The position numbers and the translations under genes are program-made. Shown piece by piece: positions 9,827 to 42,069 of a stretch of DNA of 64,000 nucleotides (the stretch's first letter is position 1; every line of letters starts with the position of its first letter). The notes under the pieces are model-generated. The model was not told the origin of the DNA and ran no database searches. It saw only the letters and a list, made by a program, of their open reading frames with translations. The stretch is from Ferriphaselus amnicola (GTDB lineage Bacteria; Pseudomonadota; Gammaproteobacteria; Burkholderiales; Gallionellaceae): positions 1,426,001 to 1,490,000 of the forward strand of contig NZ_AP018738.1 of assembly GCF_000974685.2 (NCBI RefSeq). The letters are read 5' to 3'.

Positions 9827-10596
9827 TTACTATCCTCGTGCAAATACTGAGTTAGCCGCTGGCGCACCACACTGCGCACATCGGGCTCGACATCATCCAC
9901 TAACTCAGCGATTAATTCCACCGGAGCACGCTGTGCTGCTTCCAGTCGCACCACCCAATCCTCATCCGCCAATAACCTGCCTGCATCATCCGGCAACATG
10001 CGTGCCGCGATGATGCGACGGACTTCAGCATCCTCATCTTTGACCAATATGCCCAAAGCAAAAGGTGGCATGCGCCTAGCCACCTCCTTACGCACCTCTC
10101 GGTCAACATCATGCACCATGCGCCGCAACTGACCGTGCGGTAACCGTTTAGCCACCTGCAAACGCACCAGATAATCCACATCGCTCAGCAAGGCCACCAA
10201 GCGCTCCGGCGCGATGCGCTCGGCCACTGTCATGCGCACTTCACGGTCGGTATCGTGCAAATAGTCGTCCAGTTCGTCGATAGGCAAACGGCTCGCCACC
10301 ACGCGACGCACCACCTCGTCGATATCCGGCGCCAACTGCCGCACCACCGGCAACGGTGCATAGCGCACCGCAATGGCGCGTCGCTCCCAGAAGCCATCTG
10401 CCAAGCAGCCCTCGGCAAACTCAGGGTTGCGGCGCAAAAAACGGTCGATCTGTCGCCCGCTCTGTGCCACCAAGCACACATCGCCCGGCACACACCGCCC
10501 CGCCGCCAGCACCGCCCGATGCGGACAGCAGGTGCAATCCGCGCTCACGACGCCCACCAACGGCGACGCCCCAGCCTGCCGCTCCGCCATAGCCAC
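9823..10596 (-). CDS. 4Fe-4S-binding leucine-rich-repeat-variant (LRV) protein
   Basis: About 257 residues from a GTG at 10596; an ATG two codons downstream (10590) is equally possible, and GGAG at 10601-10604 serves either. The N-terminus has clustered cysteines (CTCCPHRAVLAAGRCVPGDVC), the 4Fe-4S module known from the Azotobacter vinelandii LRV protein. At least six helical repeats of about 24 residues follow, each with a D-x-x-x-x-V-R motif (DREVRMTVAERI, DYLVRLQVAKRL, DREVRKEVARRM, DAEVRRIIAARM). The function is unknown; the nif-type promoter points to nitrogen fixation. Confidence 0.88.
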   Translation of the reverse strand: MAMAERQAGASPLVGVVSADCTCCPHRAVLAAGRCVPGDVCLVAQSGRQIDRFLRRNPEFAEGCLADGFWERRAIAVRYAPLPVVRQLAPDIDEVVRRVVASRLPIDELDDYLHDTDREVRMTVAERIAPERLVALLSDVDYLVRLQVAKRLPHGQLRRMVHDVDREVRKEVARRMPPFALGILVKDEDAEVRRIIAARMLPDDAGRLLADEDWVVRLEAAQRAPVELIAELVDDVEPDVRSVVRQRLTQYLHEDSK

Positions 10597-22180: not shown

Positions 22181-23803
22181 TTATGCGTCCGATTGTACCT
22201 TGATACCAACCCCGCCACCAACACCATGGGGATTGCTCTGCCTATTTCGGCTCAATGACTTGACATCCATACCCGCAACCAGATACGGCAGACTCAGCAC
22301 CACCAAAAACAACGCTGCATTCGTTAGATTTTGCAAATTGAAGTCCACACTACTGTGCATCAGTAACTCAACCACTGCCATCAATGAAGCAAAAGCCATA
22401 CCCTGTACAAACTGATCCTGGTTGCGATCAAGCAGTAAACGGATTGATCGATACACGCTGTGCGCCACCATCAGTACTAACAACAGCGCTCCCAGCGCTC
22501 CGACCTCGACCACGAACTCGATAAAATCATCGTGTGCATGGTCATAAAATCCGCCTACATCCTGCGGCCGGTATGGAAAGTAGGCCAGATGGAACGTCCC
22601 ACCCCCCGTCCCCAGCACGGGGAAATCTTGCACCATCTTGAGCGCCCGCAACCCCGGCCCGACACGCTCTTCCAGCGATTCTTCGCGGTAGCCGATGCGC
22701 GAACGGCCTTCGACCACATCGCCCGACACGCGGGTACGCAGTTGCTCAGCCTCCTCCTTTTCGAGCACATGCAGGTTGGTCGCCTCGATTCGGTGCATCA
22801 CCTTCTCGATGCCGACCACGCCGCCCACGATCACGACATCCAGTACCACTACACTCGCGATGAACAACATCAGCGCTCGAATCACATTCGACCGCCCACC
22901 GATATGGCGGAACGACATCAGCGCCAATCCGCCAACTAACAGCAAGCTCACAAAGAACGCCGAATTACCCATGCGAGAACGGCTTGCGATCAGCCCGATC
23001 ACCATCACGATCAGCATCAAACGTAAGATCGCCTTGCCGCTCACCAACAGACTCAGCCAGCCATGTGCACGCTTACGCCAACCTTCCACGCGCCGACCAT
23101 CCAATTTACCAATCATTAGACCGATGCCGATCGCTAGGATCATCTCTAGGTAGCCCGCAAAATGATTGTGATAGACGAACGTCCCCTTGGCTCGCATCCC
23201 ATGTTCGATCTCTACGAAGAACAGCGAATAATGCGCACCGACCGCGAACAACACCACCGCCAGCAACGCCTGCAACACACCTGAGAATATCAGCGTCTTG
23301 ACCAACCACTCTACCCGCTGCCGACTATCGACCAAGCGCAACACCAGCCAGAACAACACCGCCAGCACCCACGCCCGCACCCCATAGATCTGACTCGAAT
23401 AGGGATCGACAGACAACGGAGCCGCCGCACCAGACAAGACCGGAAATCCATCCGCCGGATTCCGATCAAGCAGACTGTGCCAAGCATGCGGCAGCGGCAA
23501 CACCTGCGCCACCAATACCAGTAACCAGCCCGCCATCAACCACAAGGGAACACGCGCTAGGCTCACCGGACTCGACTCGCGCGGACGCATCGAGGGCGTA
23601 GCCCACAAATGCCAGATCGCCAAGAAACTGACCATCAACGCCAACAGCGCCAGCGCCCAAGTCCGATTACTCGCCAACGGCAAAGGCATATAGACAAACA
23701 GCGCCAGCAAAGCAAAGAACTGCCATTTTTCAGCAGTTCCTTGTCCCTTGCGGCGTGCCCCTTGCGGCGTGCCCCTAATACCTTGTCCCCGCTCAATAGA
23801 CAT
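22181..23803 (-). CDS. O-antigen ligase / Wzy-type polymerase family membrane protein
   Basis: 540 residues with about 12 membrane helices. The O-antigen-ligase signatures are FVYHNHFAGYLEMILAIGIG and, in the large periplasmic loop, FYDHAHDDFIEFVVEVGALG. The N-terminus before TM1 contains an odd basic peptide (IRGTPQGARRKGQGT) encoded by a tract of six heptamer repeats. The start overlaps the end of the wcaJ-like gene by 11 bp. It probably polymerises the lipid-linked repeat unit in the periplasm. A second polymerase candidate occurs at 32.9-34.3 kb. Confidence 0.85.
   Translation of the reverse strand: MSIERGQGIRGTPQGARRKGQGTAEKWQFFALLALFVYMPLPLASNRTWALALLALMVSFLAIWHLWATPSMRPRESSPVSLARVPLWLMAGWLLVLVAQVLPLPHAWHSLLDRNPADGFPVLSGAAAPLSVDPYSSQIYGVRAWVLAVLFWLVLRLVDSRQRVEWLVKTLIFSGVLQALLAVVLFAVGAHYSLFFVEIEHGMRAKGTFVYHNHFAGYLEMILAIGIGLMIGKLDGRRVEGWRKRAHGWLSLLVSGKAILRLMLIVMVIGLIASRSRMGNSAFFVSLLLVGGLALMSFRHIGGRSNVIRALMLFIASVVVLDVVIVGGVVGIEKVMHRIEATNLHVLEKEEAEQLRTRVSGDVVEGRSRIGYREESLEERVGPGLRALKMVQDFPVLGTGGGTFHLAYFPYRPQDVGGFYDHAHDDFIEFVVEVGALGALLLVLMVAHSVYRSIRLLLDRNQDQFVQGMAFASLMAVVELLMHSSVDFNLQNLTNAALFLVVLSLPYLVAGMDVKSLSRNRQSNPHGVGGGVGIKVQSDA
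23736..23777. repeat. Six-heptamer repeat tract inside the polymerase gene
   Basis: On the minus strand the units are TAGGGGC, ACGCCGC, AAGGGGC, ACGCCGC, AAGGGAC and AAGGAAC: 42 bp, a multiple of three, so the reading frame is kept. The units match the AAGGGGC heptamers around 40.5 and 40.95 kb. Confidence 0.85.
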
Positions 23804-38293: not shown

Positions 38294-39514
38294 TCAGTCT
38301 TTACCAAACAGATCACGGCTATACACCTTGTCTGCCACATCTTTGATATCGTCGGTGATGCGGTTGGCTACGATGACATCGGCTTCCTGCTTGAATTGGG
38401 CAAGGTCGTTCACGACGCGTGAGTTGAAGAAGTGAGAGTCTTTCAACACGGGTTCATAGACGATGACTTCGATGCCTTTGGCTTTGATGCGCTTCATGAT
38501 GCCTTGAATGCTGCTTGCCCTGAAGTTGTCGGAGCATGCTTTCATGATGAGGCGGTGGATGCCGATGATGGGTTGGCTGGATTGCCGCGCTGCGCTCGCA
38601 ATGACGGCAGCGGCGATGAAGTCTTTGCGCGTGGTGTTGCTGTCCACGATGGCCTGCATGATGTTTTGCGGCACGTCGTTGTAGTTGGCCAGCAGTTGCT
38701 TGGTGTCTTTCGGCAAGCAGTAGCCGCCGTAGCCGAACGAGGGGTTGTTGTAGTGGTCGCCAATGCGCGGGTCGAGGCAGACGCCTTCGATGATCTGTTT
38801 GGTATCCAGACCGTGGGTGGCGGCGTAGGTGTCGAGTTCGTTGAAGTAGGCGACGCGCATAGCCAAGAAGGTGTTGGCGAACAGCTTGATGGCCTCGGCT
38901 TCGGTGCTGTCGGTGAACAAAACAGGGATGTCTTGTTTGACTGCGCCTTGTTGCAGCAACCCTGCGAAAACTTTGGCGCGCTCAGAACGCTCGCCGACGA
39001 CGATGCGTGAGGGGTGCAGGTTGTCGTGCAAGGCGCGACCTTCGCGCAGAAATTCGGGCGAGAAGATTAAATTGCACGTTCCGAGTTCTGAGTTCTGAGT
39101 GCCAAGTGCCGAGTGCTGCGTGAACTGCGCTCTGGTTTTGGCGGTGTAGCCGACGGGGACGGTGGATTTGATGATCATCACCGCCTGCGGGTTGATGGCC
39201 ATCACGTCCTTGATCACGGCTTCAATCGATTTTGTGTTGAAGTAGTTGGTCTCGGGATCGTAGTCCGTCGGGGTGGCGATGATGATGTAGTCGGCACCGG
39301 TGTAGGCTTCGACCTTGTCCAGCGTGGCCTTGAAGTTAAGTGTCTTGTGCGCAAGGTAGTGCTCGATCTCAACATCTTCGATCGGCGATTGCTTGCGGTT
39401 GAGCATCGCCACCTTCTCGGGAACGATGTCCAGCGCAACCACTTCGTGATGCTGCGACAGCAGAATAGCGTTGGAAAGGCCGACGTAGCCGGTTCCGGCG
39501 ATGGCGATTTTCAT
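38294..39514 (-). CDS. ugd: UDP-glucose 6-dehydrogenase
   Basis: 406 residues of the short E. coli-type Ugd. Features are the Rossmann motif [32 protein letters not shown], the catalytic cysteine in [15 protein letters not shown], and C-terminal GSDNFRASS-like [20 protein letters not shown]. It makes UDP-glucuronate. It is longer than the E. coli enzyme because of two repeat-encoded insertions: 14 residues ([14 protein letters not shown]) before CNLIFSPEF, and about 6-10 residues ([10 protein letters not shown]) before [10 protein letters not shown]. Both keep the frame. It overlaps fcl by 4 bp. Confidence 0.95.
38577..38605. repeat. CATTGCGA...GGCAATCCAG-type repeat in frame in ugd
   Basis: CTGGATTGCCGCGCTGCGCT followed by CGCAATGAC is the same palindromic repeat found in intergenic DNA at 26.0 and 49.8 kb. 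In ugd it encodes [10 protein letters not shown] on the minus strand. Confidence 0.82.
39080..39121. repeat. Six-heptamer repeat tract inside ugd
   Basis: On the minus strand the units are ACGCAGC, ACTCGGC, ACTTGGC, ACTCAGA, ACTCAGA and ACTCGGA: 42 bp = 14 codons. It encodes two 7-residue quasi-repeats, TQHSALG and TQNSELG. The family alignment closes up neatly if the tract is removed. Confidence 0.88.
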
Positions 39515-40467
39515 AGTTTGCTCAGCATGTCCTGATACGACAGCGCCACGCCCTCACGCAGTTCGACCTTACGCTTCCAACCTAGAGCGTTGATGCGCGA
39601 CACATCCATCAGCTTGCGCATGGTGCCATCCGGCTTACTGGTATCAAAGCTGAGTTGGCCTGGGTAGCCCACTACCTCCGCCACCAACTCGGCCAGTTCG
39701 CGGATTGAGAGGTCTTCGCCGCAGCCGATGTTGACCAGCGGCGGTTTTTCTTCGGTGAATAGGCTGCTGAGGGTTGCTTCACTTTGCTCTAGCAGGTAGA
39801 TGCAGGCATCGGCCATGTCTTCGCTGTACAGGAATTCGCGCTTGGGCGTGCCGGTGCCCCAAACGACGACTTCCTTCGCGCCGCTGATCTTGGCTTCGTG
39901 CATCTTGCGGATCAACGCGGGCAGGACGTGGGAGTTGTTGAGGTCGTAGTTGTCGTTGGGGCCGTACAGGTTGGTCGGCATCGCGGCCATGTACTTGGTG
40001 CCGTATTGACGGTTGTAGCTGTGGCACATTTCGATACCGGCGATCTTAGCCAAGGCGTACGGGCGATTGGTTTGTTCCAGCGGGCCGGTCAGCAGGCAAT
40101 CTTCGTTCATCGGCTGCGGGGCATCCTTGGGATAGATGCAGGAGGAACCCAAAAACAGCAGGCGCTGGACGTGGTTCTGCCAGGCGCTGTGGATGATGTT
40201 GGATTGGATGACGAGGTTGTCGTGGATGAATTCCGCTGGGTAGGTGTTGTTGGCGTAGATGCCACCTACGCGAGCAGCGGCCAGCAGGACGTAGTCGGGC
40301 TTCTCTTCGGCGAAGAAGCGCGCAACAGCAGCTTGGTCACGCAGCTCCAGTTCGGCATGGGTACGCACCACCAGGTTATGGTAACCCTTGGCTTGTAAGC
40401 GCCGCACTAAAGCAGACCCGACGAGGCCGCGATGGCCGGCGATGTAGATTTTAGAGTTCAGGTTCAA
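39511..40467 (-). CDS. fcl: GDP-L-fucose synthase
   Basis: 318 residues. Motifs are [18 protein letters not shown] (NADP Rossmann), [22 protein letters not shown] and [20 protein letters not shown] (Tyr-x3-Lys), plus [20 protein letters not shown]. It converts the GDP-4-keto-6-deoxymannose made by Gmd to GDP-L-fucose. The only plausible start matching family N-termini is a TTG at 40467 without a clear ribosome site. It lies directly against a heptamer repeat tract, which may have replaced the original leader. Confidence 0.94.
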
Positions 40468-40479
40468 GATTTAGGACTC

Positions 40480-40570
40480 AAGGTTCAAGGTTCAAGGTTC
40501 AAGGTTCAAGGTTCAAGGTTCAAGGTTCAAGGTTCAAGGTTCAAGGGGCAAGGGGCAAGGGGCAAGGGGC
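40480..40570. repeat. Tandem heptamers: nine AAGGTTC then four AAGGGGC
   Basis: Thirteen perfect 7-bp units cover 91 bp between the fcl start and the end of the four-helix-bundle gene. Degenerate heptamers continue toward the fcl start codon. Copy number in such tracts can change by slippage. Confidence 0.97.
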
Positions 40571-40575
40571 AAAGC

Positions 40576-40935
40576 TCATGGTTCATGGGGACGATTTCTT
40601 ATGCTTTGCATCAGTCCATACAACATTTTCGATATTTCCTCGCATGTGGTCAGCCACTGTCTGCCTGTTGTCGGTTCGATATAGCCAATTTCAATGCCAA
40701 TGTATATCTGCGTTCTGAGCTCTCCTGCCGATCCTTTTGCATAGTTCAGGAAATTATTCAATTCCTTATCGGAATTGCGTTCGTAGCCTTCTGCAATGTT
40801 GGATGGAATGGAGAGTCCGGCTCGTGTTATCTGGTCTCGAAATCCATAATCTTTCAGTGGGGCAAGTGCTTGGTAAAGGGCAATACTTAATCGTACCGAT
40901 CGTTTCCATACTTCCAGCTCTTCAAACCTAGCCAT
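40576..40935 (-). CDS. Four-helix-bundle protein (S23/IVP family)
   Basis: 119 residues from MARFEELEVWKRSVRLSIAL; GGAG five bases before the ATG lies in the adjacent heptamer tract. The family pattern is clear: W-x-x-(S/A) opening helix, FRDQITRAGLSIPSNIAEGY, ELNNFLNYAKGSAGELRTQI and the last helix EEISKMLYGLMQSI. The family includes proteins encoded in 23S rRNA intervening sequences and the Avd proteins of diversity-generating retroelements; the function of solitary copies is unknown. It sits between fcl and gmd, flanked by inverted heptamer tracts. Confidence 0.9.
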   Translation of the reverse strand: MARFEELEVWKRSVRLSIALYQALAPLKDYGFRDQITRAGLSIPSNIAEGYERNSDKELNNFLNYAKGSAGELRTQIYIGIEIGYIEPTTGRQWLTTCEEISKMLYGLMQSIRNRPHEP

Positions 40936-40942
40936 GGCCACT

Positions 40943-40963
40943 CCCACTTGCTCCTTGCCCCTT
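40943..40963. repeat. Three heptamers upstream of the four-helix-bundle gene
   Basis: On the minus strand they read AAGGGGC, AAGGAGC and AAGTGGG. The orientation is opposite to the AAGGGGC units at 40543-40570, so the small gene is bracketed by inverted heptamer repeats. Confidence 0.8.
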
Positions 40964-40983
40964 AAATCTAGCCCCTCACTCAA

Positions 40984-42069
40984 TTACTCGTGATAATCCA
41001 TGGTCTTGTAGCCATGATGCTTGACCAACTCGTCGCGCTCGGCAGCCTTGAGGTCTTCGCGCACCATTTCGGTGACCAGTTCTTTGAAGCTGACTTGCGG
41101 TACCCAGCCGAGCTTTTCTTTGGCTTTGGTGGCATCGCCTAGCAGGGTCTCGACTTCGGCGGGACGGAAGTAGCGTGGATCAACGGCGACGATGCATTTG
41201 CCGTTGGCGTCATAGCCCTTCTCTTCTACGCCGGTGCCTTCCCAGCGTACGTGGATGCCCAGTTCTTCGGCCGCTGCGGTGACAAATTCACGCACGCTGT
41301 ATTGCACGCCGGTGGCAATGACAAAGTCTTCGGCTTGCTCTTGTTGCAGCATCAGCCATTGCATTTCGACGTAGTCTTTGGCATGGCCCCAGTCGCGCTT
41401 AGAATCCAAGTTGCCGAGGAATAGGCAGTCTTGCAGGCCAAGCTTGATGCGGGCTAACGCGCGGGTGATCTTGCGGGTGACGAAGGTTTCGCCACGCAGC
41501 GGGGATTCGTGGTTGAACAGGATGCCATTACAGGCGTAGATGCCGTAGGCTTCGCGGTAGTTGACAGTGATCCAGTAGGCGTAGAGCTTGGCCACCGCAT
41601 ACGGGCTGCGCGGGTAGAACGGGGTGGTCTCTTTCTGTGGGATTTCTTGGACTAGGCCGTACAGTTCGGAGGTAGAGGCCTGATAGAAACGGGTTTTCTT
41701 TTCCAAGCCAAGGATGCGGATGGCTTCGAGAATGCGCAGGGCACCCAAGGCATCGGAGTTGGCGGTGTATTCGGGTTCTTCGAAGGAGACGGCTACGTGG
41801 CTCTGAGCGGCAAGGTTGTAGATCTCGTCCGGCTGGACTTGCTGGATGATGCGGATCAAGCTGCTGGAGTCGGTCAGGTCGCCGTGGTGCAGCACGAAAC
41901 GACGGTTCTTCTCGTGCGGATCTTGGTATAGGTGGTCGATGCGGTCAGTGTTGAACAAGGAGCTACGGCGTTTGATGCCGTGCACGATGTAACCTTTACC
42001 CAACAACAGTTCCGCCAGATAGGCGCCGTCCTGACCGGTCACGCCGGTGATTAACGCTACTTTACTCAT
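40984..42069 (-). CDS. gmd: GDP-mannose 4,6-dehydratase
   Basis: 361 residues from [20 protein letters not shown]; the ATG at 42069 follows GGAAATGAAG, and upstream in-frame codons (an ATG two codons earlier, a TTG at 42096) are less likely. Motifs are [51 protein letters not shown] and [16 protein letters not shown] (Tyr-x3-Lys). It makes GDP-4-keto-6-deoxy-D-mannose for Fcl. The two genes are now separated by the four-helix-bundle gene and repeats. Confidence 0.96.

Follow-up and report, generated by a model that had tools for sequence, protein, structure and literature searches.

The window, the whole 64,000-nucleotide stretch of Ferriphaselus amnicola DNA analysed here (G000:C1:1426001-1490000), contains the minus-strand genes gmd, encoding GDP-mannose 4,6-dehydratase (40984..42069; TIGR01472, 599 bits), and fcl, encoding GDP-L-fucose synthase (39511..40467; NF047922, 491 bits). 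They are separated by a third minus-strand gene that has gmd as its upstream operon neighbour. The intervening gene (40576..40935) starts with ATG and encodes a 119 aa member of the S23/IVP protein family (S23, 23S_rRNA_IVP or four helix bundle protein), matching PF05635 with 114.5 bits (cut-off 33.8; 3.5e-33), TIGR02436 with 113.2 bits (cut-off 24; 6.6e-33) and NF008912 at 4.8e-49; an alternative in-frame TTG start upstream at 40983 would extend the product to 135 aa. The solved relatives 2GSC and 2RLD were also matched with profile A1. This is the single S23-family gene in the complete 2.72 Mb chromosome. Family searches found the S23 domain alone, with no transposase, recombinase or reverse transcriptase domain in the gene, and no PADLOC family matched it at E<=0.01, which gives no ground for calling it a defence component.

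Read directly from the sequence, the gene forms the centre of a cassette (40446..40977, minus strand) in which it is flanked by two heptamer arms. The 5' arm (40936..40977, minus strand) consists of six heptamers in register with the ATG, GAGGGGC-TAGATTT-AAGGGGC-AAGGAGC-AAGTGGG-AGTGGCC, whilst the 3' arm (40447..40588, minus strand), picked up by tandem-repeat and lag-7 scans, holds about 18 heptamers in the opposite orientation: on the sense strand four GCCCCTT-type units, about nine GAACCTT-type units and then degenerate units as far as the start of fcl, whose TTG start codon itself lies within heptamer-like sequence. An earlier note on this DNA had described an S23-family gene splitting gmd-fcl between inverted heptamer tracts, and both the gene and every unit listed there were found as described, i.e. 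four plus-strand copies of AAGGGGC at 40543-40570 and, on the minus strand, AAGGGGC (40957-40963), AAGGAGC (40950-40956) and AAGTGGG (40943-40949). The 3' array is longer than was claimed, with some nine GTTCAAG units ahead of AAGGGGC and degenerate heptamers running into the fcl start codon. The period-7 array at 40456-40585 is the top tandem repeat of the 64 kb (score 141) and the lag-7 segment at 40478-40588 scores 84. AAGGGGC as such is not over-represented in the window (11 copies observed, 7.25 expected); what departs from chance is the way the units are arranged, in tandem and inverted. The inverted match between the arms has a score of 16, whereas none of approximately 1,500 random pairs of equal spacing exceeded 14. 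As in an intervening sequence (IVS) of rRNA, an S23 ORF is enclosed by terminal inverted repeats; since the cassette lies between gmd and fcl and not inside a 23S rRNA gene, it is IVS-like, not an IVS in the strict sense.

Period-7 arms are widespread among S23 genes. When S23 loci were scanned in 60 relatives, almost every lag-7 array was located no more than about 100 bp from the S23 gene, and most S23 loci had a heptamer sequence of their own. A census of 80 S23 loci from a genome-wide collection covered, judging by record titles, Proteobacteria, Bacteroidetes, Planctomycetes, Acidobacteria, Verrucomicrobia, Chloroflexi, Patescibacteria, Clostridia and others. A locus was counted as a hit when the lag-7 score reached 12 in the 150 bp on either side of the gene. 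The enrichment over control genes that the earlier note had made a test of its proposal was evident: 52/80 S23 loci were hits, compared with 49/420 control genes on the same contigs (p=1e-22), while 7 loci scored at lag 8 and 0 or 1 at lags 4-6 and 9-13. In a replication sample of 29 loci, drawn solely by HMM from 204 class-level genomes, lag 7 was found at 21 and each other lag from 4 to 13 at none. The 5' and 3' flanks matched in inverted orientation at 77% of census loci and 93% of replication loci, whereas the census controls gave 10% when arms from different loci were combined, 17% at control genes and 18% when the flanks were compared in direct orientation; the purine-rich arm was the 5' arm in 92/104 loci. 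At one locus (L016, 1867-1980) tracts of both orientations lie on one side of the gene. Heptamer sequence is not conserved between loci; period and inversion are. The degenerate pattern AAGNNNN was discarded as a marker because a reversed control gave nearly equal matches, and no other recurring cargo was found between inverted heptamer arms, compact paired units holding either S23 or nothing.

The neighbours of the cassettes, named by eye unless a family search is cited, are mostly consecutive genes of one operon, with junctions that include guaB-guaA, thyA-folA, dnaK-dnaJ, sdhA-sdhB, carA-carB, groES-groEL, pyruvate dehydrogenase E1-E2 and fadB-fadA, as well as gmd-fcl again in two other lineages (L161, L204). 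Where both neighbours share a strand, S23 is in the sense orientation in 47 cases and antisense in 4, a count based on crude ORF calling in which at least two of the four antisense cases look like shadow ORFs. An antisense cassette lies at the nrdB/nrdA junction of Nostoc edaphicum (L382). The sense bias fits a promoterless element that uses host transcription, and counter-selection against antisense copies would look alike.

Five cassettes are nested within protein genes whose own reading frame continues without a stop across both arms and S23, the hosts being a DNA methylase (L128), a hybrid histidine kinase (L133), the error-prone polymerase DnaE/dnaE2 (L178) and the BREX-1 protein PglX (L181, L188). 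The host frame is always +2 relative to the nested S23. The idea that S23 is selected to keep its +2 frame open, which would prepare it for nesting, was considered and rejected, stop depletion being similar in control genes (0.82 vs 0.86). S23 cassettes were also seen in or beside defence genes (L181, L188, L141, L164, L128, L381, L352), namely BREX pglX/brxL, DNA methylases, a type I-D CRISPR locus and an hsdS-like gene. The classical location was found as well: a 23S rRNA gene (L355) carries an S23 insertion with arms CATCAGAAGACAGA... and ...TCTGTCTTCTGTCTTCTGATG, in which the S23 ORF has decayed and contains two stops. Given these arms, and the variable number of tandem heptamers ahead of the S23p start codon in the Coxiella IVS (PMC4990558), the rRNA IVS is one case of the heptamer-arm/S23 unit.

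The distribution of cassettes at homologous sites bears on whether they move. Among 30 gmd loci the cassette of the window is present solely in F. amnicola and in one member of another genus (G033), so that it is not vertically fixed at gmd-fcl, the outcome that the earlier note had named as a refutation. An orthologous site lacking the cassette, also called for there, exists in a member of the same genus (G001), where gmd and fcl are 9 bp apart; this empty site is approximate and does not define the borders at the window site exactly. In two further genomes (G022, G032; loci L047, L056) the gmd-fcl gap holds another small gene, ORF6N/KilA-like by eye and decayed in one of them, and the junction looks like an insertion hot spot. 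At guaB-guaA and dnaK-dnaJ, about 20 relatives display S23 with arms, gene-less inverted heptamer hairpins, a decayed S23 flanked by arms (G020) or no element at all. The heptamers at these two junctions vary between genomes and in some genomes are common to both sites. Some dnaK-dnaJ gaps without a heptamer element (L271 in F. amnicola, L273, L285) contain other palindromes, GATGGGTT...AACCCATC and GGGGCGCATGCGCCCC.

The clearest comparison comes from cyanobacterial plasmids. Trichormus and Scytonema plasmids carry an S23 cassette at a site where six plasmids, approximately 97% identical, have none. The three empty sites that were read have AAAAAGTAATTAACAAATAA, and the filled site reads AAAAA-GTAAT-[arm S23 arm]-GTAAT-TAACAAATAA, i.e. 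with a 5-bp direct repeat, which is clear at this one site and not at others. For this plasmid relative of the window cassette, the arms plus the gene account exactly for the difference between the filled and the empty state, as expected of a transposable element. The same site also occurs with a one-arm relic (Nostoc C052) and with a gene-less hairpin (Brasilonema), and with relics in these more distant homologues, absence of the cassette may represent precise loss rather than the state before insertion; the cassette borders are exact under either reading. In two of the loci (L380 and L383) one arm differs by two heptamers. An Aulosira plasmid has a related cassette (82.5% identity) in different surroundings, and the homology does not extend past the cassette borders. 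Gene-less copies with the same arms occur in several other contexts, one of them interrupting an S23 gene in Nostoc N6 and another being an internal-deletion derivative that keeps both S23 ends. Cyanobacterial plasmids also carry a 170-200 bp gene-less repeat with heptamer arms and a shared core (L394-L397; CAATCAGTC...ACTGATTGAAGACC...). At a second locus, the junction of an integrase gene and a hypothetical gene in Calothrix, there are three empty homologues.

Heptamer arrays also occur away from S23 genes. On S23-bearing contigs, with runs of N left out, approximately 50 lag-7 arrays lay more than 1.5 kb from S23, compared with about 4 of other periods per 577 kb (a roughly tenfold excess), and 19/51 of these distant arrays were within one mismatch of the S23 heptamer of their contig, versus 4-5% for other contigs. 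In genomes of the family, arrays away from S23 number 5 in 726 kb where S23 is present and 1 in 295 kb where it is absent, a density too low to establish genome-wide spread in trans. A genome-wide heptamer excess tied to the presence of S23, in the family or the class, was likewise dropped as the association is weak. S23 is present in 3/4 genomes with GGGANTC arrays, a small number, compared with 40/204 overall. The F. amnicola chromosome contains five matches to a gene-less core motif and none to its controls. The earlier note had taken tracts in ugd and in a polymerase gene as traces of the unit. This holds as to type for the latter, a one-arm tract of AAGGGGC/AAGGGAC type at the N-terminus of a 540-aa membrane protein (23740..23795, minus strand), and fails for ugd, whose in-frame tract (39078..39122, minus strand; repeat and lag-7 scans) encodes 14 protein letters and is of another type, ACTCRGM. 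A second ugd (G000:C1, ~110.0 kb; L106) has an in-frame ACTCRGM tract at the matching place (10017-10057) and a further heptamer tract (10547-10576) about where the first ugd has a 10-letter peptide. That in-frame peptide insertion (38570-38615, minus strand) is distinct from the heptamer tract of the same gene and appears to be a further dispersed element that is translated with its host gene.

The best explanation, given a probability of roughly 0.7, is that the S23 gene and its two inverted heptamer arms form one IVS-like mobile cassette of about 0.5 kb. The proposal of the earlier note that protein and heptamers are one spreading unit is accordingly supported in its main point, by exact filled and empty sites, by the occurrence of one related cassette in two different settings and by derivatives that lack the gene, with movement deduced from comparison of present-day sequences. 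The cassette is filed here as a putatively mobile, or formerly mobile, element with heptamer-array ends, a class wider than the classical IVS. Such a cassette would insert in the same direction as host transcription, usually where two co-transcribed genes meet; insertion in frame within a protein gene would be rarer, and the classical form would be the one located in 23S rRNA. S23 would be read from the host operon transcript. The arms would act as terminal inverted repeats at the DNA level, and S23, a solved relative of which is a homopentameric four-helix bundle, may bind the arms or their single-stranded form; that it acts on the arms of its cassette is our inference. It could then assist insertion in cis, and in trans for gene-less hairpins, with insertion itself presumably depending on host repair or recombination and not on a transposase or reverse transcriptase of the element. 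The arms appear to change sequence quickly, probably through slippage within an arm and homogenisation between arms, so that heptamers differ between genomes and are partly common within one. Counting against this explanation, the empty plasmid sites may stem from loss, a clear direct repeat is confined to one site, heptamer density away from S23 is but weakly raised in S23-bearing genomes of the family, S23 is found on 42/72,556 plasmid records and no S23 match was found among 50,697 phage records. The S23 gene at dnaK-dnaJ has a dN/dS of 0.03-0.04, and this purifying selection counts on both sides: it implies that the protein is needed for something, and at that junction the strongly constrained gene looks vertically inherited, which suggests a host function or domestication.

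An RNA-level role without mobility was weighed against this explanation: the arms would pair in the operon mRNA and RNase III would release the S23 segment, the arrangement being kept to separate or tune expression of the flanking genes. RNase III excision is known for the Coxiella IVS (PMC4990558), the cassettes lie in operons in the sense orientation, the arms in the window fold into a long stem and S23 is under purifying selection. The proposal is nonetheless unlikely, since exact empty sites and copies in unrelated contexts require movement, the fold as a whole is of unremarkable stability (z=-1.5), and excision would break host proteins that the in-frame insertions leave open. Arm mismatches on the sense strand have no G-U bias (105 G-U vs 123 A-C, p=0.26). 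Selection to maintain an RNA stem is therefore not visible in the arms, which favours a role or homogenisation at the DNA level. A somewhat poorer prospect is that S23 is a domesticated host gene with a conserved cellular function, its arms neutral or regulatory leftovers and its patchiness mostly loss. The low dN/dS, placement at dnaK-dnaJ conserved in several genera, and empty plasmids that may be losses given the relics in more distant homologues all agree with this. Against it, S23 is carried by only 19/60 relatives and 40/204 class genomes at many unrelated sites, inverted arms accompany nearly every locus, and loss alone hardly explains nested copies and gene-less derivatives.

Retroelement-like copying, with S23 acting like Avd and the cassette RNA copied by a reverse transcriptase supplied in trans, draws on the relatedness of S23/IVP and Avd (PMC10053308) and on an Avd-like TIGR02436 match that adjoins a reverse transcriptase gene in one genome (G016); that Avd-like locus (L027), however, has no lag-7 array. 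No RVT_1 gene, such as a diversity-generating retroelement would need, was found in the complete F. amnicola genome or in S23-bearing G006, G014, G022, G023, G025, G027, G031, G033 and G046, several of which are incomplete; this argues against such a mechanism with a resident reverse transcriptase and makes the explanation very improbable. Last in likelihood is neutral microsatellite growth, in which slippage makes heptamer arrays in any intergenic region and S23 merely happens to be located there. Heptanucleotide repeats are over-represented in bacteria (PMC4692102, PMC4679880) and the two-heptamer difference between L380 and L383 is of the kind that slippage makes, yet far fewer arrays occur at control genes of the same contigs, inversion and arm-to-arm matching are not products of slippage, and homology between copies ends at the cassette borders. 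Neutral growth is already contradicted by the control-gene, inversion and replication results.

The mobile-cassette reading ties together three loose ends, namely the attachment of the widespread, crystallised and functionless S23/IVP proteins, the origin of rRNA IVSs and the bacterial heptanucleotide excess. Until now the S23 unit has been described solely inside ribosomal RNA genes; here it is found between and inside unrelated genes across many phyla, including a gene residing within others, a DNA polymerase gene among them, in a second reading frame. Arms plus S23 make a concrete and testable unit, with empty sites known in cyanobacterial plasmids. More tentatively, and with the odds somewhat against it, the cassettes may constitute a phylum-spanning class of autonomous mobile elements with a four-helix bundle as their sole protein and with ends specified by an inverted 7-bp period instead of a sequence, S23 building, reading or moving those ends by a new mechanism, so that rRNA IVSs and part of the heptanucleotide excess would be its visible tips.

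The nearest known relatives are the 23S rRNA IVSs of Coxiella, Leptospira and Brucella, which encode the same S23p/IVP protein family as the window cassette, although the latter lies in a protein operon with S23 intact, and the unit is elsewhere nested in frame in protein genes and has gene-less derivatives. In the literature searched, with subscription journals mostly outside it, the Coxiella IVS (PMC4990558) was the one case found in which S23 genes had been connected with heptamers. Dispersed heptanucleotide repeats resemble the cassette in period 7, inverted pairs and operon junctions: Xanthomonas has approximately 70 inverted GGGAATC pairs per genome, mostly between aligned ORFs (PMC4692102), Beggiatoaceae have dispersed TAACTGA repeats (PMC4679880), and a 2007 survey, as cited in both papers, found a heptanucleotide excess in bacteria. 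In Xanthomonas, as here, a purine-rich arm comes after the stop codon of the preceding ORF and a pyrimidine-rich arm ahead of the start of the next. Neither paper mentions S23; the readings offered are quadruplex or regulatory ones, and no general link of the GGGAATC arrays to mobile elements was reported (PMC4692102); X. campestris encodes the crystallised S23 protein Xcc0516 (2GSC). Avd of diversity-generating retroelements is a related four-helix-bundle family (PMC10053308), but unlike Avd the F. amnicola protein has no reverse transcriptase in its genome. Like MITEs and REP/RAYT systems, the cassettes include short gene-less inverted-repeat elements between genes beside a gene-bearing version, together with internal-deletion derivatives, whereas their ends are conserved in 7-bp period and inversion alone and S23 has no RAYT or transposase domain. 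Rickettsia palindromic elements are palindromes inserted in frame in protein genes; the cassette differs from them in that its insert encodes a second protein in another frame.
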